From Verrucomicrobia bacterium UBA4286 (GTDB lineage: Bacteria; Verrucomicrobiota; Kiritimatiellia; RFP12; UBA1067), in assembly GCA_002395905.1 (NCBI GenBank), contig DGVK01000142.1, positions 1 to 17,057 on the forward strand: a stretch of DNA of 17,057 nucleotides, given 5' to 3'. The notes under the pieces are model-generated. The model did no database searches and was not told the origin of the DNA. It saw only the letters and a program-made list of their open reading frames with translations. Shown one piece after another: positions 1,290 through 16,331 of this stretch. Every line of letters starts with the position of its first letter. The first letter of the stretch is position 1. The position numbers and the translations under genes are program-made.

Positions 1290-1323
1290 GAGTTTTCTCC
1301 CTAGTCTTTGGTTGATGATGGAC

Positions 1324-1355
1324 GTATTATACCATAAACCACCGCGGCATGGCAA
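1324..1355 (-). promoter_or_regulatory. Sigma70-type promoter of the hnd operon
   Basis: On the minus strand a perfect -10 TATAAT (1331-1326) is preceded by TGG, making an extended -10. A -35 TTGCCA (1355-1350, 5 of 6 matches to TTGACA) lies at an 18-bp spacing. The predicted transcription start is near 1319, giving a leader of about 30 nt before GTG 1289. The 16-mer GTTTATGGTATAATAC here (1339-1324) recurs exactly upstream of the XylR-type gene. Confidence 0.8.
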
Positions 1356-1379
1356 CTTGTTAGCCAAAACTAATCAAAG

Positions 1380-1524
1380 GCGCGGGCAGGACTTTGGCAA
1401 AGTGTGGGCAGGACTTCGCCAAAGCGTGGGCAAGACTTCACCAAAGTCTGGGCAAGACTTGGGCAAAGCGTGGGCAAGACTTCGCCAAAGCGTGGGCAAG
1501 ACTTTAACAAAGCGTGGGCAAGAC
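1380..1524. repeat. 22-bp tandem repeat (minisatellite), six full units plus a partial
   Basis: Six consecutive 22-bp units start at 1380, 1402, 1424, 1446, 1468 and 1490, with a 13-bp partial unit at 1512-1524. The plus-strand consensus is close to GCGTGGGCAAGACTTC followed by GCCAAA. Units differ mostly at positions 14-18. The array sits between the hnd promoter and the 3' end of the oppositely placed operon. Because 22 is not a multiple of three, the period is read in all three frames and gives spurious repetitive peptides on the plus strand; I see no Shine-Dalgarno or other sign that it is coding. Its role is unknown: it could be a slippage-generated spacer, a protein-binding array (22 bp is close to two helical turns), or part of a transcript end. 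Confidence 0.9.
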
Positions 1525-1539
1525 GGCAGGACGGCCGTC
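1522..1539 (-). terminator. Small GC-rich hairpin after the sialate-type operon (weak terminator candidate)
   Basis: On the minus strand GACGGC pairs with GCCGTC around a CGTCCT loop, giving a 6-bp perfect stem followed by only TT. It lies about 27 bp beyond the stop of the aldolase gene and overlaps the last partial unit of the 22-bp repeat. The position fits a transcript end but the U-tract is too short for a convincing intrinsic terminator. Confidence 0.3.
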
Positions 1540-1565
1540 GCGTGAAATCACATGGAGAAGCAAAG

Positions 1566-2555: not shown

Positions 2556-4756
2556 CGATTCTTCCTCCCCTTCTCCGCTTCGATTAATCGTTCCACTGCA
2601 AAGGCGTCCGCAACCACCGTTCCTTGGGATTTTGCCGGAATCAACCGCAGCTGGGCACCTTTGGCAAGACGAAATTCGCCCATTTCATGCCACAACCCTG
2701 TCGCCAGCCCCTGGTCGATGCAGATTTCCGAAACATCCCCGCCTGAAACGATCTCCAGAACCGTGCGAGAACCGCTTTTCGCCCACCACAGATACGGAGC
2801 CTTGAACCGAATCGCATAAAGGCCGTCTTCGTATACAGGCAGAGGATAGACCACAGGCGATGCAGCGGCGAGGTCAATGACAGGAACAGCCCCGCTGCCT
2901 TCGCCGACAACTCCCGGGAAATGCGCGGCATCACCCTCCTGTCCGCCGTTCGGGCACCAGCTCTTCATCCAACCTTTTCCGAACGCTACGTTCGGAGATT
3001 CGTCGTCCACGATATGCCAGCGTGCTCGCTCCGGTGCGCAACGGTCAGGCCAATCCCCGCCAATGCGGTCTTGAAGCATCCGGATGTGACCGCGCGAATA
3101 CACCTCCCTCGGCGATACATGCAATTCACGGCACAAGGCGGCGGCTTCGCCAGCCGCCACGCCCAGCTGGGCAAGCGTGCAGATGACGCGCGCGCTGCCG
3201 AGTCCGGCATGCGTTGCGCTAAAGCATCTGCCGGACATGAAGAGATTCGGCACGTTTCGCGAATAGATGCATCGATAGGGAATCCAGTATCGTCCATAAT
3301 GAGGCTGAACGCACTTGGTCAGAAAGTCCGCCTCGGACGAATCGTCTTCGTAATGCAGGTCGACACTCCACGATCCTGTGGCGATGGCATCCTCGAACTG
3401 ACGCCGCCCGATGATGTCCGTCTCGCTCAAGACCAAGTCGCCGAGAAGCCGTCGCGACTCTCGCTTGCCTATGAGAAACGGGCAGAACGAAAGCACCCGA
3501 TTTGCGTTTTCATGCTTCCTCTTTGCAAGTGAAAACGCGCCGTATATAGCAAGCAGCAGTCTGTCTCGGATGGCCTCTCCATCACCTGTCATGTCACGAT
3601 GGATACCATATTCCCAGTTCCATTCGCCATTCAGTGCAACCACTCCTTGCGCATAACTCTCCGCCCACGGTGCGGTAAACGGGACGGGGGCGTTGGCTTC
3701 GGAGCTTTCCCACATTATTGACGCGCCGAGTGTGTCGGCATCAGACGAATCGGGGGCGGACGGCTCCGCATATTCGTCCTTTGACTCCCGCCCCGTCCTG
3801 AAATCCGCACCTGCCCAGAAACCGATCCATCCATCGCCTGTCGCATCGACGAAAAGGGGCGCAACAAACGACACAACCCTGTTGCGTTTCAAGTCTAGCG
3901 CTTTCACGGCCGCGATAGAGCCATCGCCGTTCTTTTCCACGCCGAAAGCGCGCGTGGAAAGCCTCAAAACAATATTGGTTTCTCTTCCCACGACTGCCAT
4001 ACGCATCGCATCCGAACGCTCGCTCGCAGATGCGCGGTTCATGAATACGCCACGAAGCTCGCGCACGATCGGATGGCGCGCTTCACCGGCACACCACACG
4101 CGAATCTCGGAGGAAGCGTTGCCTCCCAATACCGGCCGGTCATGCAGAAGCGCGACTTTCATTCCGCGCCTTGCCGCCGCCACAGCTGCACACGCGCCTG
4201 GCACTCCGCCGCCGACCACGACTAGATCGACCGCCACGGTCTCTTCCACCTCTATTGATTCCGGCGACAGCGCTTCGGCGGTCGGCGGCATGCCATCTTT
4301 AGAGAGAACGACGCCCGCGCAGCGTCCGTCGAAACCCGTCAAATCGCGCAGGGAGAGCCTGGATGCTCCGCGTTCCAGCCGAACGACGCCACCATCCTCC
4401 CACGACCATTCACGCGAACCGGCGCCAAACTTCTTGTCGAGCAAACTGCCGTTCACGGAAACCATGAAGCGGCCTGGTGCGCTCGACGCCCAGTTGCGCG
4501 CCCGCACCCACACGCGATATTCGCCAGGTTCTTCCACCCGCACGGTCGCTGCCGCGTCTGCGACAGGCACGCCAAGGCCATGGGCAATCAGATACGGAGA
4601 TCCTGTCTCATACATGAATTGCGAATCAAGACTCCATCCACCAGCGTCAAAAACCTGCGACGGGACGACAATCTGCGCCACGCACGACACCGCGCCGAAC
4701 AGGGATGCAACCGCACACGAAACAAATATGGCAGAATTCTTCAATTCAATCTCCAT
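2552..4756 (-). CDS. Secreted FAD-dependent oxidoreductase (PF12831 type) with flanking beta-sandwich domains
   Basis: With start ATG 4756 this is a 734-residue exported protein. A signal peptide (MEIELKNSAIFVSC...) ends near AVSCVAQ; the cysteine there might instead be a lipobox. Residues about 30-150 form a carbohydrate-binding-like beta-sandwich (GEYRVWVRARNW, PGRFMVSVNG, LTGFDGRC). The FAD Rossmann motif VVVGGGVPGA lies at about 179-188, followed by VLGGNASSEIRVW, typical of the FAD_oxidored family found in glycan-degradation loci. The last 90 residues (DGLYAIRFKAPY, TGLWHEMGEFRL, VVADAFAVERL) resemble a golvesin-like beta domain. The reaction is unknown; oxidation of a sugar hydroxyl is a guess. 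The start overlaps the sialidase gene's 3' end by 16 bp with no strong Shine-Dalgarno of its own, implying translational coupling. An upstream in-frame start at 4822 would put 22 non-signal residues in front and is less likely. The stop overlaps the aldolase start as ATGA. Confidence 0.85.
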   Translation of the reverse strand: MEIELKNSAIFVSCAVASLFGAVSCVAQIVVPSQVFDAGGWSLDSQFMYETGSPYLIAHGLGVPVADAAATVRVEEPGEYRVWVRARNWASSAPGRFMVSVNGSLLDKKFGAGSREWSWEDGGVVRLERGASRLSLRDLTGFDGRCAGVVLSKDGMPPTAEALSPESIEVEETVAVDLVVVGGGVPGACAAVAAARRGMKVALLHDRPVLGGNASSEIRVWCAGEARHPIVRELRGVFMNRASASERSDAMRMAVVGRETNIVLRLSTRAFGVEKNGDGSIAAVKALDLKRNRVVSFVAPLFVDATGDGWIGFWAGADFRTGRESKDEYAEPSAPDSSDADTLGASIMWESSEANAPVPFTAPWAESYAQGVVALNGEWNWEYGIHRDMTGDGEAIRDRLLLAIYGAFSLAKRKHENANRVLSFCPFLIGKRESRRLLGDLVLSETDIIGRRQFEDAIATGSWSVDLHYEDDSSEADFLTKCVQPHYGRYWIPYRCIYSRNVPNLFMSGRCFSATHAGLGSARVICTLAQLGVAAGEAAALCRELHVSPREVYSRGHIRMLQDRIGGDWPDRCAPERARWHIVDDESPNVAFGKGWMKSWCPNGGQEGDAAHFPGVVGEGSGAVPVIDLAAASPVVYPLPVYEDGLYAIRFKAPYLWWAKSGSRTVLEIVSGGDVSEICIDQGLATGLWHEMGEFRLAKGAQLRLIPAKSQGTVVADAFAVERLIEAEKGRKNR

Positions 4757-5913
4757 TTCGTCGCCATGATGCAAGGTTTTCCTCCGCCCGGCGGCTGCTG
4801 GTAGTAAACAGTAAGCAGGCATCCGTCGTCAAGCTGGATTGTGGCGGGGTATCCAAGGTCGTTGTTCCGCGCCCCCGAAAGTTTGATCTCGAAGTTCCAC
4901 GTCCGGCCGCCATCGGAGGACACGGAAGCATATTCTCCAAATCCGCCCCGATCATTTGTTCTCCGCCCATAGGTGGCAACAAGCCGTCCGTCGCCGAGGA
5001 CTGTCAAGTGAGGCGGCAGACCAGACAAACCAGTGGGAGTGATCGGCTCCCACGTGCGGCCGCCGTCTTTGGATCGCGTCTGGCGCATCATGACGTCCTT
5101 CGCGTAGTCGGCGCGTATGAGAGCGTATAGTTCGCCGTTCGGCAGTTCGGCGACATGCGGCTCGTGGAAATAGTGCTTGCGGCGGTCGTTTTCGCCTGTG
5201 GAGTCGGCTATGCCGTCGCATAGCGTCCGCCAGGTGTGGCCGCCGTCGGTGGAGCGCTCCACCGTTATGGTGGTGTGCTCCCAGTATTTCGGCGTGAACA
5301 TCTTCTTGAGATTGTCATCGAAGCGTCGCCCGAACTGCATCAGCGAGCCGTCCTTGAGCAGAATCGGACCGTGCGGAGTCTGCGAACGCAGCGTGACGAG
5401 TTTTTCCGGCTTCGTCCACGTCTCGCCGCCGTCGGCCGACCATATGCCGTAGTAGCCCCAGTTGGCGCGCTTCTCGGCGTCTGTCATTGAACGGTCGAAC
5501 TCCTGCCACTTCGCCTTTGCCGATATCGGCGGGTAGTTGGTCGCGTCCATGTCGAAATAGGTTCGGTAGGCCACGGAGTTGAACCATGTGACAAAGAGCC
5601 TTCCGTCGGGAAGTGCAACAATGCCCGCATCGCGGTCGTCCAACTTTGTTTTGCCGATTGTGCGAGGGATAGACCACGTCTCGCCGCCATCGGAGGACTT
5701 GACCATCTGGACTTTGCCCCATGGACAGATGTGTGCCTCGCGGTCGCCGGAGAAGACAACGACCAGCGCGCCGTCGGCGCATTTCGCGACAGACGGCCAC
5801 GAGCACTGCCTGCCTTCTTCACGCGCAATCACACGCGTCCACAAGATTTCGCCGTCTCTCGCAACCGGTGTCATGGCAGCCGTAAGCAAGCATATCGCAG
5901 CAAAGAGCATCAT
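4741..5913 (-). CDS. Exported sialidase-fold enzyme with five Asp-boxes
   Basis: This is a 390-residue protein with start ATG 5913 (MMLFAAICLLTAAMTPVA signal peptide), AAGG about 9 nt upstream, and 29 bp after the preceding gene. Five Asp-box (BNR) motifs of the SxDGGxTW form lie at residues 73-80, 159-166, 221-228, 281-288 and 332-339, spaced as the blades of a six-bladed propeller (BNR_2/PF13088 type). Candidate arginine-triad residues are present (for example in SGDREA, IRADY and GRRTN), but the classical N-terminal FRIP/YRIP motif of GH33 sialidases is not seen. Exo-sialidase activity is therefore probable but not proven; other sugar acids are possible. The aldolase of the N-acetylneuraminate lyase family two genes downstream supports a sialic acid substrate. 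A longer in-frame reading from 6015 lies inside the upstream gene and has no ribosome binding site. Confidence 0.83.
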   Translation of the reverse strand: MMLFAAICLLTAAMTPVARDGEILWTRVIAREEGRQCSWPSVAKCADGALVVVFSGDREAHICPWGKVQMVKSSDGGETWSIPRTIGKTKLDDRDAGIVALPDGRLFVTWFNSVAYRTYFDMDATNYPPISAKAKWQEFDRSMTDAEKRANWGYYGIWSADGGETWTKPEKLVTLRSQTPHGPILLKDGSLMQFGRRFDDNLKKMFTPKYWEHTTITVERSTDGGHTWRTLCDGIADSTGENDRRKHYFHEPHVAELPNGELYALIRADYAKDVMMRQTRSKDGGRTWEPITPTGLSGLPPHLTVLGDGRLVATYGRRTNDRGGFGEYASVSSDGGRTWNFEIKLSGARNNDLGYPATIQLDDGCLLTVYYQQPPGGGKPCIMATKWRLN

Positions 5914-5942
5914 TCTGGCCTTTCTCTTTTCCAATAATCGTT

Positions 5943-8630
5943 CTATCGTATGACGATCATCAGTCCGTTGACAGGCTTGAGCAAGATTGAGTTGCCCTTC
6001 GTCACGACACGCCACCGTTCGACATTTTCCGTAGAACCTTCGGGGAAGGCGAGTTCAATATTGCCAAGAAGTGCAAGCGTCTTTTTGCATTCGAGCAGCG
6101 TCGCGCCGTTTCCGTTGCGGTATTGCGCCAGGTTCTCAGGATCGGTCACGACGATCTTAACGCCGTTGACAAGCGTGATGTTTTGATCAACGGTCAGGTG
6201 CCGTCCTTCGAAGATGTCGGCGGCGGTGCATTCGATGCGGTCGGTGACCGTGAAGTCTCCGTATGACGTCGCGCCTGCGCCCGCGATGAACGGCACAGTG
6301 ACCGCTGTATGCATCTCCTCGAAAGTAAGTGTCGCGCCATTGGCAATCGTCACGCCTGCACCCATCGGCATCCCGCACTGCGGCGCGGTCGCATTATGAA
6401 AGCCGAGTATGCCCTCCTCGACAGTGACATCGCCCTTAAACGTGTTCGCGCCATACATGTTGAGACGCCGGGCGCCGCGTTTAGTGAAACCTTTCCATCC
6501 GCTCGACGGCTGATCTTCAAGCGTTACCGTCGCGGTGTAGTCCTGCGAAAGACCGCCGCCGGAAAGCTCAGCCGACGCAGATGTGTAACCCCAGCCCGGA
6601 CTGGTTACGACGATGTTCGTCACTGTGCGCGTATTGTCGTCGAAAAGCGCGAACGCGCTCGCGCCCACGCCATCGCCGGTGATCGTCACAAGCGGAGAGC
6701 CTGCGAGCCTCTTCTCGGATGAGAGATCTGGCATCGCAATCGCCGCGACACGCCTGCCCGTTTCAGCCGGAGAGGTGAATGATATGTGCATCCAGACAGC
6801 GCCGTCGCCAGACACGGAAGAAGTATCGACGGCAAACCCGCCTTCGTAAACCGTGGATTGTGTCGGCCTGCGAAATTCGTCGGAGCCGTTGGAGAAATGC
6901 GCTTGGCTAAGGCGTGGCTTGATTACGCCGCCGTTGAGATTGAAATACCAGTTGTAATTGCTGGAAACTCGATACAGGCGACTTGCCTCAAGCGTTCCGC
7001 CGTCATTGAGATTGACGAATGCCGATGCGACTGCATTCGTCCACAGAAAGCGCAGCCACGTGCCGACTTTCATAAGCGAGCCTCTGCCTGCAACAGTCAC
7101 TTCGCCGCGTCCGGCGTAATTGCGGCTCGCGCTGTCGCCGAAATCGAAGCCTTCGTCTACATCTACCACGGCTCCGCCGTTCTGGAACCACGCGAGCGGT
7201 CCTGCGCGGTAGGCGAAAGCGATGTTGTCCGAGTTGTTGAATGCCGCCGTGCCGCCGGAGAGCGAAAACGCCGCCTTGCCGTTTACGCCGAGGAGGGTGG
7301 TTTTCTTCGATCCGTCCGCCAGCGCCGTCAGTGAAAGACTTCCTCCGCTCTGACCGACGTAGCCGTAGCTCCCGACAGCGCTGGCCATGCGATCGAGCGC
7401 GGCATCACCAGTGCACCAGTGCGACGCGCCGCCGCGCTGGTAGATGGCGCCCGTGCCTTCTCCGCCGACGCGCAATGCGTAGTTTGTCACAATTGAACCG
7501 TCCTCGACGGAAACCGCGCCGTAAGTGCCAGCAGTTTCGCCGACATAAAAGCGGGTCTGCCCATAACCAGCGGCAGACAGTTTCCCGACCAGTTCAGAGG
7601 CACCGGAAATCCCCACAAACGCGCCGGTCTCGTTTTCGACGGTAACGCGGGCGGTTGCGGTATTCGTAACGACCGCCTCGACGAACGATACGCTGCCTTT
7701 GCCGTTGACCGTAAGTGCGCCGCCCAAAGTGACCGGACCGTTGGCGAACGACATGACAGCGTTGGAATCGGAAGCATTCACTGTGAGTGCGCCTGCGGCG
7801 GTTACTGGCCCGGCAAGCCGGTTGCGCGGCGGGTCCGCCGTGTTTGAGTCGTCCGAAACCACGGTCGCGTTGCCTACGGCCACCACGGACCAGGCGAGCG
7901 GGCCGGAATGCCGCAGTATCAATGTTGTACCGTTCTTGAGAGTGATCTTGTTTGAGCTGCCGCCTCCCTTAAGCGCATTGCCGTTGTGCAGAAAGAGCGT
8001 TCCTCCCTCGATGACTATATTGCCGGGGTTCGCCGTAGTGCCGTCCGCACCGTATGCAAAAGTGTTGTTACAGTAGAGGATGCCGGTGGAGGCTTTCGTG
8101 AGCGTGAAGCCGTTGAGATTAAGCTGCCCGGAGTTTGAATCGAAACCCGTCTGCGTGCCGAGGACAATGCGGGCGTCTGCCGCAAGAGTTATTTTTCCGA
8201 ATAGGGTGTTGAGTGTTTTAAGTGAACCGTTTCGCCGTATGGCGCCGCGATTGTCGCTTGCGCCCGTGCCGGCGATTACGATTTCGGTCTGCGGTATCTT
8301 GCCGACGGAATCCTCGCTCCATGAAAGGTCCAGCGTCGCGCCAGAGCGAACCGTGATCTTCGTCGGCGCACCGAAGCTGTTGGGAGTTGTCTTGACCTTA
8401 AGCTCACCCTCGCGGATTTCGATTTCGCCAGTGAAGGAGCCGGTCATGTCGCCCAGGTCGAGCGTTGTCACGCCTTTGCCGGTCTTTACAACCTTCGAGG
8501 CTGCGGCATATGCAGTCGTGTTGTTGTAGGTGTTCGCAGACGAACCCCCTCCGACGTCAATCTCGCCCGCAACAGCTCCGAGAGCAAAAACCGCCGCAAC
8601 AACACTCACTTTTTCTCTTACAGACTTCAT
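5943..8630 (-). CDS. Large secreted surface protein with autotransporter-associated beta-strand repeats
   Basis: This is an 895-residue exported protein. ATG 8630 has AAAGGAG 7 nt upstream; an earlier in-frame start at 8675 adds 15 charged residues and lacks a site. The signal peptide is MKSVREKVSVVAAVFALGAVAG. The rest is Gly/Ser/Thr/Asn/Val-rich and consistent with a beta-helix. Clear PATR-like (TIGR02601/PF12951) repeats occur near residues 40-100 (VVKTGKGVTTLDLGDMTGSF) and 711-745 (FTKRGARRLNMYGANTF), with shorter cycles such as GALTVNGKGSVSF between. There is no terminal 12-strand autotransporter barrel; the protein ends in a beta segment and the tail GLMIVIR. Such proteins are usually cell-surface or extracellular scaffolds or adhesins. 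It opens the sialidase operon, so binding or displaying enzymes at the glycan is a reasonable guess. No catalytic motif is recognised. Confidence 0.85.
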   Translation of the reverse strand: MKSVREKVSVVAAVFALGAVAGEIDVGGGSSANTYNNTTAYAAASKVVKTGKGVTTLDLGDMTGSFTGEIEIREGELKVKTTPNSFGAPTKITVRSGATLDLSWSEDSVGKIPQTEIVIAGTGASDNRGAIRRNGSLKTLNTLFGKITLAADARIVLGTQTGFDSNSGQLNLNGFTLTKASTGILYCNNTFAYGADGTTANPGNIVIEGGTLFLHNGNALKGGGSSNKITLKNGTTLILRHSGPLAWSVVAVGNATVVSDDSNTADPPRNRLAGPVTAAGALTVNASDSNAVMSFANGPVTLGGALTVNGKGSVSFVEAVVTNTATARVTVENETGAFVGISGASELVGKLSAAGYGQTRFYVGETAGTYGAVSVEDGSIVTNYALRVGGEGTGAIYQRGGASHWCTGDAALDRMASAVGSYGYVGQSGGSLSLTALADGSKKTTLLGVNGKAAFSLSGGTAAFNNSDNIAFAYRAGPLAWFQNGGAVVDVDEGFDFGDSASRNYAGRGEVTVAGRGSLMKVGTWLRFLWTNAVASAFVNLNDGGTLEASRLYRVSSNYNWYFNLNGGVIKPRLSQAHFSNGSDEFRRPTQSTVYEGGFAVDTSSVSGDGAVWMHISFTSPAETGRRVAAIAMPDLSSEKRLAGSPLVTITGDGVGASAFALFDDNTRTVTNIVVTSPGWGYTSASAELSGGGLSQDYTATVTLEDQPSSGWKGFTKRGARRLNMYGANTFKGDVTVEEGILGFHNATAPQCGMPMGAGVTIANGATLTFEEMHTAVTVPFIAGAGATSYGDFTVTDRIECTAADIFEGRHLTVDQNITLVNGVKIVVTDPENLAQYRNGNGATLLECKKTLALLGNIELAFPEGSTENVERWRVVTKGNSILLKPVNGLMIVIR

Positions 8631-8685
8631 TTTTTCGCTCCTTTGTTTTCGTGGATGTTCATGCGCATCGCGCAAGGATGCTGGT

Positions 8686-8742
8686 ATTGTAGCATGTTAT
8701 CGCGCCGATCTTGTCCAATCGGTGGAATATTTTTTTATTGAA
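8686..8742 (-). promoter_or_regulatory. Extended -10 promoter with A-tract for the sialidase operon
   Basis: On the minus strand TGC is followed by TACAAT (8691-8686), an extended -10 element. I see no good -35. An A/T-rich block including seven consecutive As (complement of 8730-8736) lies about 50-60 bp upstream of the predicted start near 8679, where an UP element would sit. The leader to ATG 8630 would be about 50 nt. The 132-bp gap from 8631 to 8762 holds nothing else I can recognise. Confidence 0.6.
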
Positions 8743-8762
8743 CAGCTCTCCGCAGGAGGTCG

Positions 8763-9680
8763 CTATGCGCTGCGGAAGGAGGACGGTGTGCGCCCGGTTA
8801 TGGACTTGAATGCGGTGGAGAAATACTGAGAACTCGCGAATCTAAGGGTGTGGGCAATTGCTTCGATGCTCATTCTGCCCTCTCGCAGCAGCGCTTCCGC
8901 CTTGCGGACGCGGCAGGCCATCAGATGGGCATGCGGAGGCAGTCCCGCAACGCACTTGAACTGCCGGGAAAACATATTGGGGGAAAGGCCGACGCTGCGG
9001 CTCATCGCGTCCAGCGAATAATCAGCGGTCGGATCAGTCTCCATGCGGTGCATCCATTCGGCGACGCCCGGAAGAATGTGCTGCCGGACGCTGGATTCCG
9101 CCGCCTCAACAACGGCAAAAATCAATTCCTGGCATGAAAGCCGAAGCGCCGCCTTGCGGCGCACGGGCGACCATTCACGGCGGTCGTATATCTCGAAGCA
9201 GCGTTCGAACGTATCCCGCAGCGTTTTCCCGGAGGTTTGAAAACGTCTGGGCAACAACATGAGGGCCGAGCATATCCATCGTGTCTCTTCAAGCGTCAAC
9301 CCTGCCATGCATCTGCCCGCTCCAGGCAGGTGCACAAGAATGCGGTAGACAAAAAGGCCTTTTGGGTTTGACGTCAAGCAATGAGGTTCGTCAGCGCGAG
9401 AAACGAAAACGTCTCCAGGAACAAAAGGGAATTCCCTGCTTGGTGTGCGAAATGCCAATCTCCCTTTGACGCAGTAGGCGATTTCGACGCATCCAGCATG
9501 TATGTGAAAAAGCGGCCCGCATGAAAAAACACGACATTCGCGTCGCGACAGAACTTCTGCAAACGGCACGCCTTCGCTGCGCAGATCAAGAACCCGTTCT
9601 CCGGGTTCGTCTCTATACCGCGTCGTCTCGGATTTCCACTCTCCGACTTCTTCCCCCCGGTTTTTACGCTTTTTATTCAT
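8763..9680 (-). CDS. AraC-family transcriptional regulator
   Basis: From ATG 9680 this is a 305-residue regulator. The N-terminal half is a cupin-type sensor (GPLFHIHAGCVEIAYCVKG, FVPGDVFVSRADEPH), as in AraC-like sugar regulators. The C-terminal ~100 residues carry the two helix-turn-helix units: YSLDAMSRSVGLSPNMFSRQFK and MSIEAIAHTLRFASSQYFSTAFK, ending in GRTPSSFRSA. The start is uncertain: ATG 9680 (16 nt after the GH43 stop) and ATG 9695 (1 nt after it) both have weak ribosome binding sites, and either implies coupling to the GH43 gene. It is the last gene of the second operon and lies immediately upstream of the first operon's promoter, so it may control one or both. Inducer unknown. 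Confidence 0.88.
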   Translation of the reverse strand: MNKKRKNRGEEVGEWKSETTRYRDEPGERVLDLRSEGVPFAEVLSRRECRVFSCGPLFHIHAGCVEIAYCVKGRLAFRTPSREFPFVPGDVFVSRADEPHCLTSNPKGLFVYRILVHLPGAGRCMAGLTLEETRWICSALMLLPRRFQTSGKTLRDTFERCFEIYDRREWSPVRRKAALRLSCQELIFAVVEAAESSVRQHILPGVAEWMHRMETDPTADYSLDAMSRSVGLSPNMFSRQFKCVAGLPPHAHLMACRVRKAEALLREGRMSIEAIAHTLRFASSQYFSTAFKSITGRTPSSFRSA

Positions 9681-9696
9681 GCTGCACGCCGCCATA

Positions 9697-10683
9697 TTAC
9701 GGATTAATGCGCAGCGCTGCGCCTGTGTCCTCAATCTCAAAAAGCGCCATACGTTCGGCAGGCGTGACATTGGGCTGGTGGAGCGTCAACATCAGACGTC
9801 CGTCGAATGCTTTGAATATCATGCCGTGTCCACCGTCCTTTCTGAAAAGAAGTTCGTCCTTAGACCATGGCCCGGCAATCCTGCCGCCAGGTGATGTACG
9901 CGCAAAAATGCAGTAATCCGACCCTTCCTTGTCAGTGCGCTTCATCGCGTTCGACCATATCATATAGAGTGCGCCGCTTTTCTCTGAGCGCCAAAGGAAC
10001 GGGCCGTCCGTTACACACCCCGCGCCGACCATAGCTTCAGACGCACTGAACAGCACCGTCGGTGCAGCAGTGAACGAGGCGAAATCTGGAGCAAGCGGCG
10101 CATAACACATCAAACCGTCTTTCATCTGACACCATTCATGACAGAAGACCATATAAGGCCGACCATCCTCGACATAGAGCGAGCCGTCGAGAGTCATCCA
10201 GTCTCGCGGCGGAACAGGGCCGTTCTTGACCGGAGTGAAAGGCCCTGTTGGACTTTCTGCCTTGTACACCCATACTCCGCGCGGAGCGAGAAATTTCTCC
10301 CTGCCAGCAACAAGCAAGGCGGGTTCATACGCGCCCTGTCCGAGCGTCAATGTCACAAAAAGATAGTAGACACCGTTGTGCTTGTGCACTTCGGGAGCCC
10401 ACACCATCGCCACGGGCGTATCACCCGCGACGCGCATTACCTGAGTCTTTCCTGTCCAATGCTCAAGATCAGCGCTTCGACGAACACAAACGCCTTGTAC
10501 GCCATTCAGCGATCCGGATTCGTACAGGTAATACACGCCACGCTCTGCAAGAATGAACGGATCACGAATACGAAAGTCCGTCCGGGCGAACGGTGTTTCA
10601 AGAGGTGTTATTCCCGCGAAACCGCAAGTCGCATTGAGCACGACGGTCAAAAGAGCCGTTGCGCCAACAATTGATTTATTCAT
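9697..10683 (-). CDS. Secreted GH43-family glycosidase
   Basis: This is a 328-residue protein with signal peptide MNKSIVGATALLTVVLNATCGFAG, followed directly by a five-bladed-propeller GH43 domain. Visible landmarks are the catalytic base Asp41 in FRIRDPFIL, WAPEVH (95-100), the pKa-modulating Asp166 in TLDGSLYVEDG, and GGHGMIF (284-290) with LHQPN (301-305). At the general-acid position the sequence is VTDGPFLW with Asp226, not the textbook EGP; from memory some GH43 subfamilies share this TDGPFL form. Likely activities are arabinofuranosidase, xylosidase or galactosidase. Start ATG 10683 has AAGGAG upstream; an ATG at 10725 overlaps the -10 of the promoter and cannot be the start of that transcript. 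The gene is followed closely by the AraC regulator. Confidence 0.9.
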   Translation of the reverse strand: MNKSIVGATALLTVVLNATCGFAGITPLETPFARTDFRIRDPFILAERGVYYLYESGSLNGVQGVCVRRSADLEHWTGKTQVMRVAGDTPVAMVWAPEVHKHNGVYYLFVTLTLGQGAYEPALLVAGREKFLAPRGVWVYKAESPTGPFTPVKNGPVPPRDWMTLDGSLYVEDGRPYMVFCHEWCQMKDGLMCYAPLAPDFASFTAAPTVLFSASEAMVGAGCVTDGPFLWRSEKSGALYMIWSNAMKRTDKEGSDYCIFARTSPGGRIAGPWSKDELLFRKDGGHGMIFKAFDGRLMLTLHQPNVTPAERMALFEIEDTGAALRINP

Positions 10684-10723
10684 TTCCCGGATTCTCCTTA
10701 TTGCACCTCTCACGACGGTTTTC

Positions 10724-10753
10724 ATTATATCATTTTTACACGCTTAGGGGCAA
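10724..10753 (-). promoter_or_regulatory. Internal promoter before the GH43-araC pair
   Basis: On the minus strand TGA is followed by TATAAT (10729-10724), and TTGCCC (10753-10748) lies 18 bp further upstream, inside the 3' end of the six-hairpin enzyme gene. The predicted start is near 10717, giving a leader of about 34 nt before ATG 10683. It would allow the GH43 and AraC genes to be expressed apart from the operon's first two genes. Confidence 0.65.
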
Positions 10754-12336
10754 CCCCCGGCTCGTGACCGTTCGGGGCGGGCAGGCTTGGGACGAGAGGT
10801 CGCGCACGACGAGCGGCACCTGTCGGCGACAGCGAGGAATTCCAGCCGGTCGGCAACATAGACCATGCAGTTGACCCAGTCGCTGCCGCGACGCGAATCG
10901 AAATATGTCGGAATCGTTCCGTCGTCGCGCTGCCGGCGCGTAAGACTGTCCGCGAGCGCCCTGGCTTTCTCGAGATAGAGCTCGTCGCCAGTCGCGCGGT
11001 ATGTCGCGGCGAACGCGCCGATCATATCTCCCATGGACGCATCGATCGGAGTATAGTAGTCATACTGTTCGAGCGCCGTGGGCGTCTTCCAGTTCTTCCA
11101 GTCCATTACGTGCACTGGATCGCTCCACACCACGAACTGGTCTTCGCACCAGTCCACGATCTCTTTCGCCTCGGCTGTGCGCCCCAGCTCGAAAAGCCTG
11201 AGCGCCGTGTCGACGGCGACGCCTTTTTGCAGGTTCTTGTAAGGAGGCGCCGGGTCCATGTCTTCGAACTGTCCGTCCCAGTTCCACGTCTTCAGCGGCC
11301 CGTTCTGCACATATGCGAAAGCCCTGTCGCGCGCGGCGGCGAACGAACCGTCGCCTGTCGCGGCGAACGCGCGGTCGAACGCTCCGAGCAGATAGCGGTC
11401 CGGCACAAGTCTGTTCGAGCGCACCGGCGCGCCGTCGCTCTCGCGCACCTTGAGCGGCCATGTGCCGTCCTCGCCTTGAAGCCTCGCGTATGTGCGCATG
11501 ATGGCGAGCGCGGCTTCACGGTACTTCACATCGCCGGTCGCCTCCGCAAGATCGAAGTATGCGTTCGCGGCGTGCGCGGGATAGCCGAGCATGTTCTGGC
11601 CGGAGTATTTCACGGCGACGTCGCGACGGTCGCCCCAGTATGTCGGCGGAAAGAACGCGAGCGGCGCCTGCGCGCCCTGGCTGTGCGCCAGAAGCCAGTC
11701 GGCCATCTTGCGGGCGACGGCCAACGCGCCTTCCGCATCTTCCGGCGCATATTTCGCGTGGCGGCAGAGCGCGCGGATCATCGAGCTTAAGATCTTCGCC
11801 GGATAGCAGTACAGGTCGTAACCCTGCGGCGGACCGTCGCTCGTCTTCCACATCTGCACATGCGGCATTCTGTAAACGGCCGCGTAAACCCGACGCGCTG
11901 AGGCGCGGCAGTCCGGCGCACCTGCGGGGTATGGGCCGTGAAACACGGCTGCGCGGTAGAAAGCGCGCCCGCCGCAACCGTCCACCTGCAGGGAATAATA
12001 GCCCGGCGCGAGCGCGTCCCACACAGCGGCGGGAACAGGCGACCACGGCTTCGCCGACGTCCACGTCGCAACCTTTTCCTTGTTCGTAGTCAGCGAAAAT
12101 CGGTATTCTTTGAAACCATCGACCTCTTTGAAGTCGAACGCCGGCGGATGGATGAACGCCTTGGAGTGAGCGTTCCAGAACGGACGCTCCCCCGGAACGC
12201 CCGCACGGACAGGCTCGCTGGCCTGTTCGCGGGCGGCCGCGTTGACACGCGCCCAGTAAGCCTCGTCGCGCGAAGCGCCGACGGCGGACGCCGCCACCGC
12301 AAAAACGCATATCGACAAAAGCACATTGCCTCTCAT
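10744..12336 (-). CDS. Secreted six-hairpin (alpha/alpha) glycan-active enzyme, unknown specificity
   Basis: This is a 530-residue exported protein (signal MRGNVLLSICVFAVAASAVGA) with start ATG 12336 behind GGAGGAGAA, 18 bp after the preceding stop. Residues about 50-125 look like the small beta domain found at the N-terminus of some heparinase-II-like and related lyases (PPAFDFKEVDGFKEYRFSL, KPWSPVPAAVWDALAPGYYSL). Residues about 150-505 are repeated helix pairs with aromatic-rich loops (GQNMLGYPAHAANAYFDLAEATGD, GTWPLKV, MGDMIGAFAATYRATGD, GSDWVNCMVYVADRL), typical of the six-hairpin glycosidase/lyase superfamily that includes GH88/105, AGE epimerases and several polysaccharide lyases. I cannot assign a family or catalytic residues. 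The last ~25 residues are a basic, Cys/Pro/Arg-rich tail unlike the rest. It is co-transcribed with the DNRLRE protein and probably acts on the same polysaccharide. Confidence 0.72.
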   Translation of the reverse strand: MRGNVLLSICVFAVAASAVGASRDEAYWARVNAAAREQASEPVRAGVPGERPFWNAHSKAFIHPPAFDFKEVDGFKEYRFSLTTNKEKVATWTSAKPWSPVPAAVWDALAPGYYSLQVDGCGGRAFYRAAVFHGPYPAGAPDCRASARRVYAAVYRMPHVQMWKTSDGPPQGYDLYCYPAKILSSMIRALCRHAKYAPEDAEGALAVARKMADWLLAHSQGAQAPLAFFPPTYWGDRRDVAVKYSGQNMLGYPAHAANAYFDLAEATGDVKYREAALAIMRTYARLQGEDGTWPLKVRESDGAPVRSNRLVPDRYLLGAFDRAFAATGDGSFAAARDRAFAYVQNGPLKTWNWDGQFEDMDPAPPYKNLQKGVAVDTALRLFELGRTAEAKEIVDWCEDQFVVWSDPVHVMDWKNWKTPTALEQYDYYTPIDASMGDMIGAFAATYRATGDELYLEKARALADSLTRRQRDDGTIPTYFDSRRGSDWVNCMVYVADRLEFLAVADRCRSSCATSRPKPARPERSRAGGCP

Positions 12337-12354
12337 TTCTCCTCCGGAACCACT

Positions 12355-14988
12355 CTATTTGATGATTATTACAAGGCCGCGCTTTACCCAGTTCTTGAGC
12401 ACAAACACGATCTGCGGTGCGCATGAAACACCCTGCGAACGCTCGCGGGAGATTATGCCGAAGTTCCACTGGCCGCTGCTGTAGGCTGCGGTGTGGAGCG
12501 TGACGTGCGTGTCGCCCGCCGCGCGCGCCGTGCGGATTGCGTCGGCCACGTCGAACTCCACAGGCACGTTCGCCGTGATGTCACCGGATTCGGCGACGAT
12601 GTGGGATCCGAGTTCCGTTTCCAGCGGGCGCTTTCCGTCGGGATGGTTGCCGTATGCCTGCGGCGTCGCCCAGCCGTTGCCGAACACATCATTCCAGGCC
12701 GGGGCGCTCGCGTCCGACCACTCGAAGTCTGGATATTTGAGGAGGTCGAAATGCGCGTTATCACTGACGTTAGCGGCGTTGCCCGTGGGATACAGCTTCA
12801 GCGTCGCCGACGTAAAGTTCTCCGGCATCTCCGCGAGGCTGAAGCGGTAAAGCGCTTCGCGGACGCCACCGCTGTTTTCAAGGCCATCGTATTTGTGGAC
12901 GAGTGTGGCCGCGGTGCCAAACGATGTGTTGGCTCTGCCGCCGTTCTGCACGTATGTATCGGCGCAGGCGAAGACCGTCTTTTTCGCATCAAACGCAACG
13001 GTAGCTTCGACAGCGGCGGAGGAGCCGTCGGCGGCGTCGTAGCCGGTGATGCGGTAGGTGTGCGATATCCCCGGCTCGGCGGTTCCGTCGAGGCAGGTCG
13101 CCTCCGAAAGACCCGATGCGACCGTCTTCCAGGAGCCGTCGCTCTTCTGGCGTTCGACCGTATATTCGCCCTGGCCCGAAGGAAGCGCCGTCCACGCGAG
13201 ACGAAGGGCGGGCGTCGCGCCGCTCATGTCGAGAGAACACGTAACCTTGTTCGCAAACTTCGTATCTGGGTCGGGAAAGATGAGAACGGGCGGATAGGCA
13301 CTCGCGCTCTTGTAGAACTGCGGCCAGAATCTGCCAGGATTGTTGTAGCCGTAGTTGCTAAACAACCCGATGGAGAGCATTCGCCCAGCGGCGGCGGCGG
13401 CACGTGCAGAAGCCGTTACGTCCACTTCAAAGTACGTCCCTGCTCTCTTTAACTGTGTGGTGTAGATGTCGGCGACAAGCCCGTTCGGCGGATTCGCCTC
13501 CGAAACGGAGGCGGGCTGCGGGAACCAAGGGGTTGCGGTGTTCCAAGTGAGATTCGTCGCGCTCCAATAGTCAGTAGTCCATGCGGAGACGCGCAAGGTG
13601 CCGGCTCCAGCAGCGACATTGCCATACGACGCCACGCGGAGACGCACAAACTCGGCATCCTCCAGTCCCGAAGGGTCAAAGAGCATCGTGGCATAGACAA
13701 CCTTGCTTTGGTTGTTGCAGCCAATCAGGAAGTGGTCGGCATAAGTGCTGTTGGAGAAGAACGCCGTGTCCTTTTCGGTGTCATCATACCCAGAAAGGTG
13801 CGTCTCCTGCACTGAGGTACGGGTGGCATACGTAATTTCATCAAACGGCTTCTGAAGAATGTAAGGATGGAACGCAATGGCATCGGCATAATCCTTCGAG
13901 TAGCAGATGAAAAAGCGCGGGCTTGAGTTCTGAACCGTGATGTGCAGCGACATCGTCGTCTTTCCGGCGGCAAGAGCTTGGTTCACAAGCGGCGCAAGTT
14001 CAATGTCATAGAACGCATCCGCCCCAGGCGTCGGCACTCGCATTGCGTTTGACGGCGTCGTTTCGGCCCATGCCGCCCCCGGTGTCACTCCTGGCGGCGG
14101 ATTGTTCCAAGTGACCGCGCCTTCAGACCAATCGTCGCTTACAATCTGGAGCTGGATGGTGTTGCCGGTCGCCGTCTGGTCATTGGTTCTGACGCGAAGT
14201 TTTGCCGAAGCTACGGATTGCGCGTTGATTGTGGAAAGGTCAAACTTCATCAACCCCTCTCGCCTACCTCTCTCTACAACAATGGCTCCGCTGCGCTCTC
14301 CGCCGTTCGCCACGGTTCCGAAATTGGAGTTGGGATTGGCACGCTCAATGAAAGCGTCCTCGATCAATTTCAAAGCAGTTTCCTCGCCCTGAAACTCAAG
14401 CACTGGATGCAGCGAAGCATCCGCGTTATTGGAAGACAGGAATATAAGCGGTGTCGAGTCGCCGCTATTGTTATCCTGATAGGTATAGATGTGCAGCGCA
14501 AGGCGACCGCGAGACGCGGCAGTCCTGACGCCCTCCGTGACATCGACCTCAAGCCAACTGCCCTGTGATCCAGCGGGAATCTCGGCATACCCTGCGAGCG
14601 TCACGTCATTCGTCGCAAGAATCGGCGATGGCGCGACGCGGAACTCGTCGGGAAGCAAATTCCACGTAAGTGTCGCCTCGTTCCATGTGTCGTTTCGCAT
14701 GACGCGGAAATAGACAGGCCACTTCACGCCATCCGTCGTGCCGCACTGCGAAATGTATAACTTGATCTTGGCGGCGGTGACATTCGCGAGGCCAGATACG
14801 TCGAACATCATACAGCCCTCACGACTGTTGCCGACGATGATACCAGCATTGTCGCCATAAGCCGTGTCGCGAGTAGCGTAGTTCACGAAAGTGTCCTGGA
14901 TCGGCGCACGCGACTGCCACGTTTCGCCATCAGCCAACGCCACAGCGGCAGCCATAGCCGCCACACCGATTACGAGTAGTCTTTTCAC
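12355..14988 (-). CDS. Secreted surface protein with four DNRLRE (CBM96-like) domains and a fibronectin-III-like domain
   Basis: This is an 877-residue exported protein with start GTG 14988 behind AAGGAGG. A reading from 15045 would place the start upstream of the -10 of the operon promoter. The signal peptide is VKRLLVIGVAAMAAAVALA. Four DNRLRE-type beta-sandwich domains run at about 28-200, 207-382, 392-575 and 671-863. Each begins with a DTFV/DAFI/ETHL/DTYV strand, contains a FD-S/L strand after a G-rich loop, most have an LTWN/VTWN motif, and each ends in a hydrophobic strand such as YPPVLIFP or APQIVFV. Residues 585-667 form a fibronectin-III-like module (YTVERQKSDGSWKTVASGL, HTYRITGYDA). 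After domain 4 there is an appended 14-residue tail, LKNWVKRGLVIIIK. DNRLRE domains are known in secreted carbohydrate-binding and biofilm proteins, so glycan binding is likely. First gene of the second operon. Confidence 0.85.
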   Translation of the reverse strand: MKRLLVIGVAAMAAAVALADGETWQSRAPIQDTFVNYATRDTAYGDNAGIIVGNSREGCMMFDVSGLANVTAAKIKLYISQCGTTDGVKWPVYFRVMRNDTWNEATLTWNLLPDEFRVAPSPILATNDVTLAGYAEIPAGSQGSWLEVDVTEGVRTAASRGRLALHIYTYQDNNSGDSTPLIFLSSNNADASLHPVLEFQGEETALKLIEDAFIERANPNSNFGTVANGGERSGAIVVERGRREGLMKFDLSTINAQSVASAKLRVRTNDQTATGNTIQLQIVSDDWSEGAVTWNNPPPGVTPGAAWAETTPSNAMRVPTPGADAFYDIELAPLVNQALAAGKTTMSLHITVQNSSPRFFICYSKDYADAIAFHPYILQKPFDEITYATRTSVQETHLSGYDDTEKDTAFFSNSTYADHFLIGCNNQSKVVYATMLFDPSGLEDAEFVRLRVASYGNVAAGAGTLRVSAWTTDYWSATNLTWNTATPWFPQPASVSEANPPNGLVADIYTTQLKRAGTYFEVDVTASARAAAAAGRMLSIGLFSNYGYNNPGRFWPQFYKSASAYPPVLIFPDPDTKFANKVTCSLDMSGATPALRLAWTALPSGQGEYTVERQKSDGSWKTVASGLSEATCLDGTAEPGISHTYRITGYDAADGSSAAVEATVAFDAKKTVFACADTYVQNGGRANTSFGTAATLVHKYDGLENSGGVREALYRFSLAEMPENFTSATLKLYPTGNAANVSDNAHFDLLKYPDFEWSDASAPAWNDVFGNGWATPQAYGNHPDGKRPLETELGSHIVAESGDITANVPVEFDVADAIRTARAAGDTHVTLHTAAYSSGQWNFGIISRERSQGVSCAPQIVFVLKNWVKRGLVIIIK

Positions 14989-15102: not shown

Positions 15103-15134
15103 AAGGAGCGCGTTTATGGTATAATACCGGCATG
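15103..15134 (+). promoter_or_regulatory. Extended -10 and unusual leader of the XylR-type gene
   Basis: TGG at 15117-15119 is followed by TATAAT at 15120-15125, only 6 bp before ATG 15132. If this is the promoter, transcription starts at or beside the A of the ATG and the mRNA is leaderless. In conflict with that, a good Shine-Dalgarno AAGGAG (15103-15108) lies upstream. It is spaced 7 nt from ATG 15116, which opens a two-codon frame, ATG GTA TAA, ending 7 nt before ATG 15132. A second plus-strand TATAAT at 15063-15068 could supply a longer transcript, but it has neither a TGn nor a good -35. Confidence 0.6.
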
Positions 15135-16331
15135 GAGCATGTGGAGAACCGACACCCGAAGATAGCGATATTCGCATCGATCAACCTGAAGGGCGGGCGC
15201 ACCAGCGTTCGCGGAATACTGGACTACGCGCACAGGCACGGGCCGTGGCGGTGCATGCTGCTGGAGGGCCGCGACAGCGAGCAGGCGATCCAGCCCGGGC
15301 TTCTGGGCTTCGACGGGATAATAGCGCACAATCTTTCTCGCGACGAGGCGAAAGCCGTCGCGGCCGCGAACGTGCCGGTCGTCCTCATAGAGCCGTGGCC
15401 GCAGCAGCTGGCGCGCGGAAATCCGCTGGCTGACGCGCCATACGTGAAGATGAACTCATACGACGTCGGCGCGCTGGCGGCCGAATACTACCTCGACCGC
15501 GGATACAAGTCGTTTGTGTATGTGGGCGAAACGCTCGGCCTGTATTGGTCTGCGGACAGGCGTGCGGGATTCGTCGATACGCTCGCCAAACGCGGCTTCG
15601 GCTGTATTGTCTACGACACCTTTTCCGCAAGGGAGCGTCGCAGCTGGGCGGCGGAGCGACCTAGGATGATGCGTTTCCTCAAAGGTCTTGAAAAGCCTAC
15701 CGCCATATTCGCGGCGATGGACAATCGGGCGCGTCTGGTGCTCGACGCCTGCGCAGAGGCCGGGATATCCGTCCCCGAAGAAATCGCAGTCCTCGGCGTG
15801 GACAACGACCCGATCATCTGCGAGTCTTCGGTGCCGACGCTTTCCAGCATCCGCACAGGAGGCTTCAGGCGGGGGCAGATGGCCGCCTCGATGCTTGACG
15901 ATCTTATGTGTTCGCGCCCCATAAGGCAGAGGACTCTCTCCATTGGGCCGCTCTCGGTTGTAACACGCGAATCGACAGGCTATGACGCGATGCGCGATCC
16001 CGTGCTGGCCCGTGCGCTTAAATTCATCCACGCCAACGCGGCGGAGCACCGCATAGGCGTCGCCGACGCGGTCGCGGCCGCAGGATGCTCGCGCCGATAT
16101 GCGGAGGTGCACTTCCGCAGGCACCTCGGCATTTCGATACATGACGCCATAATACAGACGCGTCTTGAGCGCGTGAAAGCCCTGCTTGAACAGAGCAACC
16201 TTTCCATAGGGGAAATCTCCGAACGGTGCTCGTTCGCCCGCGAAAGCCACCTTGCCGTTCTGTTCAGGAAGGCGACCGGGATTTCGATGAGGGAATACAG
16301 GCGTCTCCGGCGGGAAGAGTCCGACGACTGA
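15132..16331 (+). CDS. XylR-type regulator (periplasmic-binding-protein-like sensor fused to AraC HTH)
   Basis: This 399-residue regulator is the only plus-strand gene. Residues about 10-285 are a LacI/periplasmic-binding-protein-like sugar sensor (IAIFASINLKGGRTSVRGILDYA, FDGIIAHN, YFLD-type helix YYLDRGYKSFVYVG, AAMDNRARLVLDACAEAGISVPEEIAVLGVDND, TLSSIRTGG). Residues about 290-395 are an AraC-type double helix-turn-helix (VADAVAAAGCSRRYAEVHFRRHLG, SIGEISERCSFARESHLAVLFRKATG), ending in REYRRL. This is the E. coli XylR architecture, which activates xylose genes on binding the sugar. It is divergent from the DNRLRE/GH43 operon across 143 bp, so it most likely activates that operon and perhaps itself in response to a sugar released from the target glycan. 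The ligand cannot be read from the sequence. ATG 15132 starts at the right place for the sensor domain. Confidence 0.92.
   Translation: MEHVENRHPKIAIFASINLKGGRTSVRGILDYAHRHGPWRCMLLEGRDSEQAIQPGLLGFDGIIAHNLSRDEAKAVAAANVPVVLIEPWPQQLARGNPLADAPYVKMNSYDVGALAAEYYLDRGYKSFVYVGETLGLYWSADRRAGFVDTLAKRGFGCIVYDTFSARERRSWAAERPRMMRFLKGLEKPTAIFAAMDNRARLVLDACAEAGISVPEEIAVLGVDNDPIICESSVPTLSSIRTGGFRRGQMAASMLDDLMCSRPIRQRTLSIGPLSVVTRESTGYDAMRDPVLARALKFIHANAAEHRIGVADAVAAAGCSRRYAEVHFRRHLGISIHDAIIQTRLERVKALLEQSNLSIGEISERCSFARESHLAVLFRKATGISMREYRRLRREESDD

Follow-up and report, generated by a model that had tools for sequence, protein, structure and literature searches.

A seven-residue C-terminal tail on large exported proteins of an uncultured Kiritimatiellae bacterium

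The window analysed here, that is, the whole stretch of 17,057 nucleotides of contig DGVK01000142.1 (Verrucomicrobia bacterium UBA4286, GCA_002395905.1), encodes two large exported proteins ending in GLMIVIR (GGACTGATGATCGTCATACGATAG) and GLVIIIK, each followed directly by a stop codon (Table 1). Both tails were found at the codons where an earlier note on this DNA had placed them. The beta-repeat protein matches TIGR02601 below the cut-off of that model and gave no match in a Pfam scan; its mechanically called open reading frame extends to 8675. The DNRLRE/CBM96 protein is probably glycan-binding, and its modelled C-terminal part fits the chondroitin-sulfate-binding CBM 8wab and the alginate-binding CBM 7vbo; here the mechanical frame extends to 15045. 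As the earlier note had it, the enzymes of the two operons lack the tail: the four that adjoin the tail genes end in KWRLN, GRKNR, RINP and AGGCP.

Table 1. Genes and tails in the window
Feature	Position	Strand	Remarks
Dihydrodipicolinate synthase family protein, no tail	1566..2555	-	PF00701; ends KCSLM
FAD-dependent oxidoreductase with Golvesin_C domain, no tail	2552..4822	-	PF12831, PF25275
BNR/sialidase-like protein, no tail	4741..6015	-	PF13088; ends KWRLN
C-terminal tag GLMIVIR and TAG stop of beta-repeat protein	5943..5966	-	kept in 3/3 orthologues; no structure in model
Large exported beta-strand-repeat protein, 895 aa from MKSV start	5943..8630	-	signal peptide by heuristic
AraC-type regulator	8763..9770	-	PF12833
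GH43 glycosidase, no tail	9697..10725	-	PF04616
GH127-like exported protein, no tail	10744..12336	-	PF07944
C-terminal tag GLVIIIK and TAG stop of DNRLRE/CBM96 protein	12355..12378	-	outside fold
Exported four-domain DNRLRE/CBM96 protein, 877 aa from MKRLL start	12355..14988	-	PF24517 (4 stretches), NF033679
Regulator, Peripla_BP_3 and AraC-type HTH (XylR-like)	15132..16331	+	divergent from DNRLRE gene

In the structural models of both proteins the tail comes after the last predicted strand. In the DNRLRE model, built with 30 of 55 homologues, it has no structure of its own and lies outside the fold. In the beta-repeat model it is likewise unstructured, and residues 267-271 have pLDDT values below 50. 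Conservation in orthologues, one of the two checks set out in the earlier note, was borne out: the tail is kept in all three orthologues of the beta-repeat protein (P0002-P0004). Of 55 listed DNRLRE proteins, including that of the window itself (P0005), 54 carry a tail, and the remaining one (P0045) ends within the domain. Just 27 of the 55 fit the motif of the earlier note exactly, the other tails being variants such as PFVVVVR and PFVIVLY. The form G-L-x-I-x-I-[RK] proposed there is too narrow for the clade: 30 of the 54 tails begin with G and 20 with P, 49 end in R or K, and every one has hydrophobic residues at positions 4 and 6, whereas position 5 also accepts T, S, R and A.

A logo of 32 carriers sharing less than 40% identity across the 30 residues upstream of the tag reads G32; L20, M9, F3; M23, V5; I19, L6, V5; I26; V17, I10, L5; and R22, K9, H1. 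Conservation is confined to the seven codons preceding the stop, with little information upstream. Within these codons the first and second positions are conserved and the third is mostly freer, all three stop codons occur, and the flanks carry no signal. This points to selection on the protein, not to a DNA repeat.

The tag is abundant in the genome from which the window comes. A DNA pattern for G, five hydrophobic residues, a basic-type residue and a stop (GGN-(NTN)x5-MRN-TRR) gave 45 matches, as compared to one for the same pattern read backwards. Forty of the 45 are C-termini of open reading frames (ORFs) found by the gene caller of this analysis and two end in TGG, which is not a stop; the other three lie outside called ORFs, at the ends of frames of 1237, 131 and 48 codons, of which the longest ends with the tail and the shortest probably arose by chance. 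Of 460 sampled ORFs, 39 end in the strict motif, where its occurrence at 2 of 199,756 interior positions would predict 0.005, and 41 end in the looser motif of the earlier note, with 0.11 expected; this sample is enriched, because 41 of its 60 stretches were picked for holding matches. In unselected stretches of four other tag-bearing genomes, the general motif ends just 10 of 387 ORFs, with 0.45 expected. In small samples from tag-poor or outside genomes, it ends none of 437 ORFs (G253, G171, G282, G209, G239, G326 and G015) and one of 37 ORFs in G107, that one being without a signal peptide.

Enrichment among secreted proteins, put forward earlier as the way to check the motif, was clear: the looser motif ended 34 of the 126 ORFs in which a simple heuristic called a signal peptide, versus 7 of the 287 complete ORFs in which it called none (Fisher P 3e-13), and none of 47 ORFs that were cut at the 5' end and had no signal peptide. 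Of the seven exceptions, L036 and L071 fall just below the cut-off, the N-terminus of L048 contains masked bases, L067 and L068 each show a signal-peptide-like stretch at an internal start, and in L046 a signal-like stretch follows a start that is probably mis-set, leaving L069 without explanation. Carriers are mostly large; in this sample, enriched for matches, the tail occurs in 31 of 52 signal-peptide ORFs of at least 600 aa versus 3 of 74 shorter ones.

The carriers form 20 sequence clusters. Thirty-eight were scanned for families, namely 37 of the 40 strict carriers (omitting L066, which has 115 aa, as well as L033 and L038 2635-6120, both truncated at contig ends) and one near-match (L038 67-2286). 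Laminin_G_3 was matched by 12, and others match CBM96, F5/8C or PA14. A restriction to glycan binders is not strict, as phosphodiesterase and polysaccharide lyase families were matched too. Among 19 large tail-less signal-peptide ORFs, 8 match enzyme families, e.g. GH3, GH31, GH78, GH123, GH127 and FAD_oxidored, and 6 gave no family match; this set comprised 18 of the 20 others of at least 617 aa (omitting L086, 4394 aa, and L041, 995 aa) and one of 466 aa, the tail-less FAD protein of the window having been scanned separately with the other window proteins. Named carriers come mostly from MAGs titled Kiritimatiellae, Lentisphaerae or Verrucomicrobia, or from RUG MAGs.

The tag is patchily distributed across the class and occurs in dialects. 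Its count is high in the window's own genome and in G329, G279, G259, G330, G110, G383 and G395, and low in ten f2 genomes and in G171, G239 and G326. The window's own genome uses G[LM]MII[VI][RK], with 45 matches to the form of G followed by five hydrophobic residues versus 1 in the control, and 0 versus 0 for GT-led tails. The latter are found in other genomes: the counts for the two forms, each against its control, are 28 versus 9 and 49 versus 2 in G259, 15 versus 7 and 31 versus 0 in G312, and 82 versus 7 and 6 versus 1 in G329. Such differences among genomes are as expected if a reader co-evolves with the tag. Four genomes of the same genus gave no clear excess of either dialect (first form, 1 versus 4 in G171, 1 versus 0 in G239, 1 versus 1 in G324 and 2 versus 1 in G326; GT form, 0). 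A pattern for a PF dialect, modelled on DNRLRE orthologues of the PFVVVVR type, was matched 0-3 times in each of 57 genomes, a yield close to that of its control, and this variant is thus not established genome-wide in the sampled genomes.

The same tag stands, strictly at the C-terminus, on unrelated exported proteins, as is characteristic of C-terminal sorting tags in general. We consider it probable, at roughly 0.65, that the tail is a C-terminal sorting tag for delivery to or anchoring at the cell surface, distinct from PEP-CTERM. The tag would be read by a single machine of the envelope, probably as an extra beta-strand whose terminal charge is fixed. This machine would bring the large glycan-binding and beta-repeat proteins to the cell surface or anchor them there, and the untagged enzymes of the same operons would stay elsewhere. 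A point against this reading is that the tail lacks the membrane-spanning helix of other CTERM signals. As far as examined, this machine would not be encoded beside its clients: the co-occurring processing or secretion gene suggested earlier did not emerge, and clustering of the genes near tail genes identified no receptor, protease or translocon. Type II secretion was rejected, since TIGR02517, matched in 56 of 57 genomes (7 above cut-off), does not discriminate, the tag-poor genomes matching too.

Other readings of the tail were weighed against a sorting tag. It could be a stand-alone beta-signal of the BAM type, with BamA or another Omp85 protein recognizing G-x-x-Phi-x-Phi and inserting or threading the protein at the outer membrane. 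The spacing matches the consensus zeta-x-G-x-x-[Omega/Phi]-x-[Omega/Phi] given in PMC10945584, and the invariably hydrophobic positions 4 and 6 of the DNRLRE tails, with a tolerant position 5, agree with it. Set against that consensus, however, the logo fits at G and at both Phi positions but not at the polar one, no polar preference being evident two residues before G (P9, V5, S3, R3, D2, I2, K2 among 32 carriers). Moreover, the tag ends in R or K where an aromatic residue would be wanted, the 16 families matched by the 38 carriers include no barrel family, and both modelled tails hang free of non-barrel folds rather than forming the last strand of a beta-barrel. We regard this reading as unlikely. 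It is quite unlikely, too, that the tail serves as the docking strand for secretion of a type IX-like kind, the C-terminal domain having otherwise been lost. According to PMC11285876, the Ig-like domain of type IX cargo (motif C-t.; KLIKK peptidases) includes a strand at the extreme C-terminus that is conserved and needed for function, and the tail resembles it in its conserved end with hydrophobic and basic residues. That system needs a folded Ig-like domain, whereas the carriers share no sequence ahead of the tag and in neither model is the tail part of a fold. Por_Secre_tail (PF18962) had no match in the window's genome, with the control matched in one genome below cut-off, and SprA_N (PF14349) matched none of 15 genomes, the control genomes giving no match either.

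A donor strand inserting into a neighbouring surface subunit, and so building a fibre or lattice of beta-rich proteins, would be in keeping with tails that are free and hydrophobic in both models and with the many large carriers that match beta-rich domains. We hold it to be very unlikely, because the carriers are unrelated in sequence and domains and one common acceptor would be needed for all. Tail-specific and PDZ proteases usually recognize hydrophobic C-termini, which the tail resembles, but a periplasmic quality-control or turnover tag is improbable, as the conservation of a degradation tag on so many large exported proteins would be hard to explain and the basic last residue is unlike any turnover tag known to us. 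There is hardly a case for a PEP-CTERM signal that has shrunk and is still processed by the exosortase of the genome. Exosortase is indeed present in 55 of the 57 genomes of the family, including the window's own and tag-poor ones, but ordinary PEP-CTERM matches occur in 52 of the 57, with 7 in the window's genome and 4, 3 and 5 in the tag-poor G171, G239 and G326, and the tag has neither a helix nor PEP. Since exosortase has its own PEP-CTERM matches, processing of the tag by it was rejected as the main reading. An artefact, whether from repeated DNA at the ends of genes or from C-termini that are hydrophobic throughout the genome, is next to inconceivable: the DNA repeat was rejected on the freer third codon positions and the signal-free flanks, and the motif is rare in protein interiors (2 of 199,756 positions).

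The earlier comparison with PEP-CTERM holds in role but not otherwise, the genome having separate exosortase and PEP-CTERM matches. CTERM models matched neither window protein at E up to 1, nor were any among 25 of the 98 families listed for the 38 carriers. GlyGly-CTERM and MYXO-CTERM tags contain a membrane-spanning helix, whereas the hydrophobic run here is five residues long. The order of motif residue, hydrophobic run and basic end at the C-terminus is common to the tail, GlyGly-CTERM/rhombosortase and MYXO-CTERM/myxosortase, the last with dozens of proteins per genome (PMC3237569, PMC11980579). According to Haft 2006 (PMC1569441), PEP-CTERM is a short C-terminal tag with a basic end that occurs sporadically across genomes on many unrelated signal-peptide proteins, as does the tail, but it combines a PEP motif with a transmembrane helix and a basic cluster, instead of seven helix-free residues, and both kinds coexist in the same genome. 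In the open-licence literature, searches for four tail peptides as strings returned no mention, and no paper was found on Kiritimatiell* with PEP-CTERM. There are papers that mention Kiritimatiell* together with autotransporter or type IX secretion, or Kiritimatiellae together with secretion and C-terminal, and wider searches returned known CTERM papers.

If the tail is a sorting signal, a heptapeptide without a helix on dozens of large exported proteins would be, to our knowledge, among the smallest such signals of Gram negative bacteria, and it implies a machine that awaits discovery, for which the patchy spread over the class provides a ready search profile. Some of the surface proteins of uncultured Kiritimatiellae could then be recognised from sequence. 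The tag separates tagged binding proteins from untagged enzymes inside single polysaccharide-utilisation operons. More tentatively, at somewhat less than even odds, Kiritimatiellae may possess a system, so far undescribed, that delivers proteins to the outer membrane or anchors them there, with about 40 to 80 clients per tag-rich genome, recognizing a seven-residue C-terminal strand, with dialects that drift with the receptor and partial control by ECF sigma factors that share a reading frame with a tagged client. In that case, the state of export could feed back on transcription. Among the genes near tail genes, the families that recurred were regulators, at 13 loci, and sigma factors, at 3 loci, with two members in each of the remaining clusters, and a homologue of the XylR-like regulator lies at most four genes away from 15 of 42 tail genes.

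In the genome of UBA4286 (2.37 Mb, 82.6% complete, 237 contigs, the window lying on C217), a tag of seven C-terminal residues is far more frequent than expected by chance. The earlier note had reported two such tails in the window, each directly before a TAG stop, and both were borne out; the sialidase, FAD enzyme and GH43, said there to have no tail, indeed have none, and neither have the remaining three genes of the row. Read in DNA as G, five codons with middle T, [CA][GA]N and TRR, the tag has 45 matches in the whole genome, versus 1 for the identical pattern read backwards. Among 460 ORFs called in the window and 60 other stretches of this genome, the strict motif ends 39, a frequency raised because 41 of the 60 stretches were picked for holding matches, whereas 0.005 would be expected from its interior rate in the same ORFs (2 of 199,756 positions). 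The count of 45 versus 1 is independent of that choice.

Features of the window and of other DNA stretches (L, stretch; G000, genome of UBA4286; C, contig)
Sequence	Position	Strand	Feature
Window	5943-8630	-	Beta-strand-repeat protein, ends GLMIVIR-TAG
Window	12355-14988	-	Four-domain DNRLRE/CBM96 protein, ends GLVIIIK-TAG
Window			Rest of gene row: sialidase-like, FAD oxidoreductase, GH43, GH127-like, DHDPS-family, AraC-type regulator
Window		divergent	XylR-like regulator, before the DNRLRE gene
Window	about 1350-1545	+	Short repeated stretches (GQDF.KVWA-like when translated), ahead of the start of the next gene listed
Window	810-1367	-	Gene
L049	G000:C124:1403-2128		Exosortase gene
G000:C139	within about 13 kb		Five PEP-CTERM matches, frames of 188-207 aa
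L094	102-6468	+	Three tagged genes in tandem (RUG10619, named MAG)
L067	555-3101	+	One stop-free frame: ECF sigma factor, membrane segment, signal-peptide-like stretch, LamG-type cargo, tag
L068	3483-6286	-	Frame following an ECF sigma gene: anti-sigma-like membrane segment, signal-peptide-like stretch, cargo, tag
L061	1593-3218	+	Sigma-like part, membrane segment and further protein ending GGLVIIVNFDNQKGRSNT
L053	1346-7228	-	Gene row: sigma-like, small membrane, further exported and tagged protein

The carriers are largely unrelated: blastp sorts the 42 that a somewhat broader motif collects into 20 clusters, 14 of them holding a single protein. In 32 carriers with <40% identity across the 30 residues preceding the tag, its seven positions are occupied by G (32); L (20), M (9) or F (3); M (23) or V (5); I (19), L (6) or V (5); I (26); V (17), I (10) or L (5); and R (22), K (9) or H (1), and positions upstream hold 0.35-0.95 bits each, partly small-sample bias. 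In the DNA of the tag, codon positions 1 and 2 are conserved and third positions are mostly freer, albeit less so at Met-rich sites; all three stop codons occur (12, 10 and 10 times), and no clear signal is seen in the 30 bases 3' of the stop. Taken together, these features indicate that selection is on the last seven amino acids of the protein.

The enrichment among secreted proteins that the earlier note had named as a check was found. With signal peptides called by a simple heuristic, the note's motif G-[LMT]-x-[IVL]-x-[IVF]-[RK]-stop ends 34 of 126 positive ORFs versus 7 of 287 complete negatives (P 3e-13, excluding 47 negatives cut at the 5' end, of which 0 carry it). In this sample, which is enriched for matches, 31 of 52 signal-peptide ORFs of >=600 aa are tagged, and 3 of 74 shorter ones. 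Six of the seven tagged negatives likely have an explanation (two just under the cut-off, one N-terminus masked, two internal starts, one start mis-set); the seventh has none. Pfam scans of 38 carriers gave matches to 16 families altogether, with Laminin_G_3 in 12 and Laminin_G_2, F5/8C, CBM96, PA14, phosphodiesterase, polysaccharide lyase, sialidase N-terminal and others in 1-3 each. Of 19 tail-less signal-peptide ORFs scanned, the large ones taken from one ORF list, eight matched enzyme families, two a permease or transporter, one was a permease-kinase fusion, one had DUF6259 and one Flg_new repeats, and six matched no family; part of this set probably consists of membrane or cytosolic proteins misjudged as exported by the heuristic.

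The tail is also retained in relatives of both window proteins, one of the two points on which the earlier note had let its proposal stand or fall. All three relatives of the beta-repeat protein have it (GMMVIIR, GTVIMFR, GMVMVVR). For the DNRLRE proteins, the tail itself held up in 54 of 55, including the window's own (P0005), but its exact proposed motif in 27 of 55; the tail-less protein stops within the domain, and one member is assigned by one source to a Kiritimatiellae bacterium. These 54 tails begin with G (30) or P (20), are all hydrophobic at positions four and six, and end in R or K in 49. The C-terminal parts of both window proteins were modelled with AlphaFold2, 237 residues for the DNRLRE protein (31 sequences, mean pLDDT 87.8) and 271 for the beta-repeat protein (4 sequences, 85.1). 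Their last strands end at residues 224 and 262, respectively, and the tail after them has no secondary structure, with pLDDT of 61 in the last DNRLRE block and <50 at beta-repeat residues 267-271. Thus, the tag is predicted to hang free of the fold. Foldseek matches of the DNRLRE model include the solved carbohydrate-binding modules 8wab (chondroitin sulfate) and 7vbo (alginate).

Like PEP-CTERM, which was recognised by strict C-terminal place, unrelated carriers, Sec signals and conservation beyond hydrophobicity (PMC1569441), the tag shows all four marks. The exosortase/PEP-CTERM system exists separately from the tag: of 57 same-family genomes, 55 have the exosortase family and 52 PEP-CTERM, including genomes poor in either tail form. 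The tag shares the G-x-x-Phi-x-Phi spacing of the BAM beta-signal, but shows neither its polar position nor the barrel (PMC10945584), and it resembles the T9SS cargo motif C-t. in its basic and hydrophobic extreme end, but lacks the Ig-like domain (PMC11285876). On these grounds, we propose that the tag is a sorting or anchoring signal with a machine of its own. A putative envelope machine would read it as a beta-strand whose C-terminus is free. The nature of the cargo, namely large proteins, frequently with domains of the carbohydrate-binding type, whose genes share rows with those of untagged enzymes, leads us to infer that tagged proteins are located at the cell surface.

Two dialects were found in the 57 genomes (G numbers; pattern v control). 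The form with G, five hydrophobic residues and a basic end is high in G329 (82 v 7), G279 (56 v 5), G330 (36 v 5) and G259 (28 v 9), as in the own genome, and does not clearly exceed its control in G171 (1 v 4), G239 (1 v 0) and G282 (0 v 2). The GT-led form is high in G259 (49 v 2), G312 (31 v 0), G330 (30 v 1), G316 (24 v 0) and G309 (23 v 0), with 0 matches in the own genome. Of 30 GT matches checked as loci, 20 end frames that span all 507 upstream codons, four end shorter frames truncated at the locus boundary and six end closed frames of <100 codons. Apparently one small protein of <100 codons with GT-type tails (LNTKKI[VI]GT...R) occurs in several genomes (L171, L177, L178, L179, locus edge to stop). 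G259, G101 and G309 gave 22 tagged ORFs of 626-2032 aa in 20 stretches that surround GT matches; 10 have a heuristic signal peptide, four are cut at the 5' end and eight have none, at least two of these eight starting signal-peptide-like by eye. In stretches of G259, G312, G329 and G101 chosen blind to matches, the general motif [GP]-x-x-Phi-x-Phi-[RK] ends 10 of 387 ORFs (0.45 expected).

Class-wide, 67 of 193 genomes have at least one GT match, with high counts in other families as well (G110, 25 v 0; G383, 18 v 1; G395, 15 v 0; G385, 11 v 0; G375, 9 v 0; G195, 9 v 1; G216, 8 v 0; G201, 7 v 0), and none of the ten f2 genomes has any. Phylum-wide, the G-Phi pattern matches 120 of 288 genomes, most near control level outside the family; a slight excess outside the class (4-6 v 1-2) in G054 (6 v 1), G042, G072, G152 (family f37) and G129 (5 v 1) could be composition. 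With a narrow pattern for the tag's DNA, matches were obtained in 16 stretches of named GTDB genomes, titled Kiritimatiellae (1, yak rumen), Lentisphaerae (2), Verrucomicrobia (3), Rhodobacteraceae (1), uncultured bacterium with RUG names (8; RUG for rumen genomes) and another uncultured bacterium (1). A tagged ORF ends at the match in 12 of these; none was found in L100, L101 (titled Rhodobacteraceae), L106 and L108.

In the L067 frame, a Shine-Dalgarno-like run precedes an internal Met that is followed by the signal-peptide-like stretch, and the internal Met of L068 is again preceded by such a run. Judged from these sequences, an internal start likely yields the cargo as a separate protein, and the long sigma-to-tag product may also be made. 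When relatives were sought with the first 330 residues of L067 among the 7993 candidates sharing most words, 12 proteins were found, 11 of which join sigma part and C-terminal tail: nine close (P0060-P0068) and two distant (P0069, GMILIFQ; P0070, GVVIVIR). The twelfth, P0071, is different, polymerase-like and tail-less. The end of the L061 frame looks like a drifted tag with a lost stop, and the gene after it codes for a tagged protein whose start is phosphodiesterase-like.
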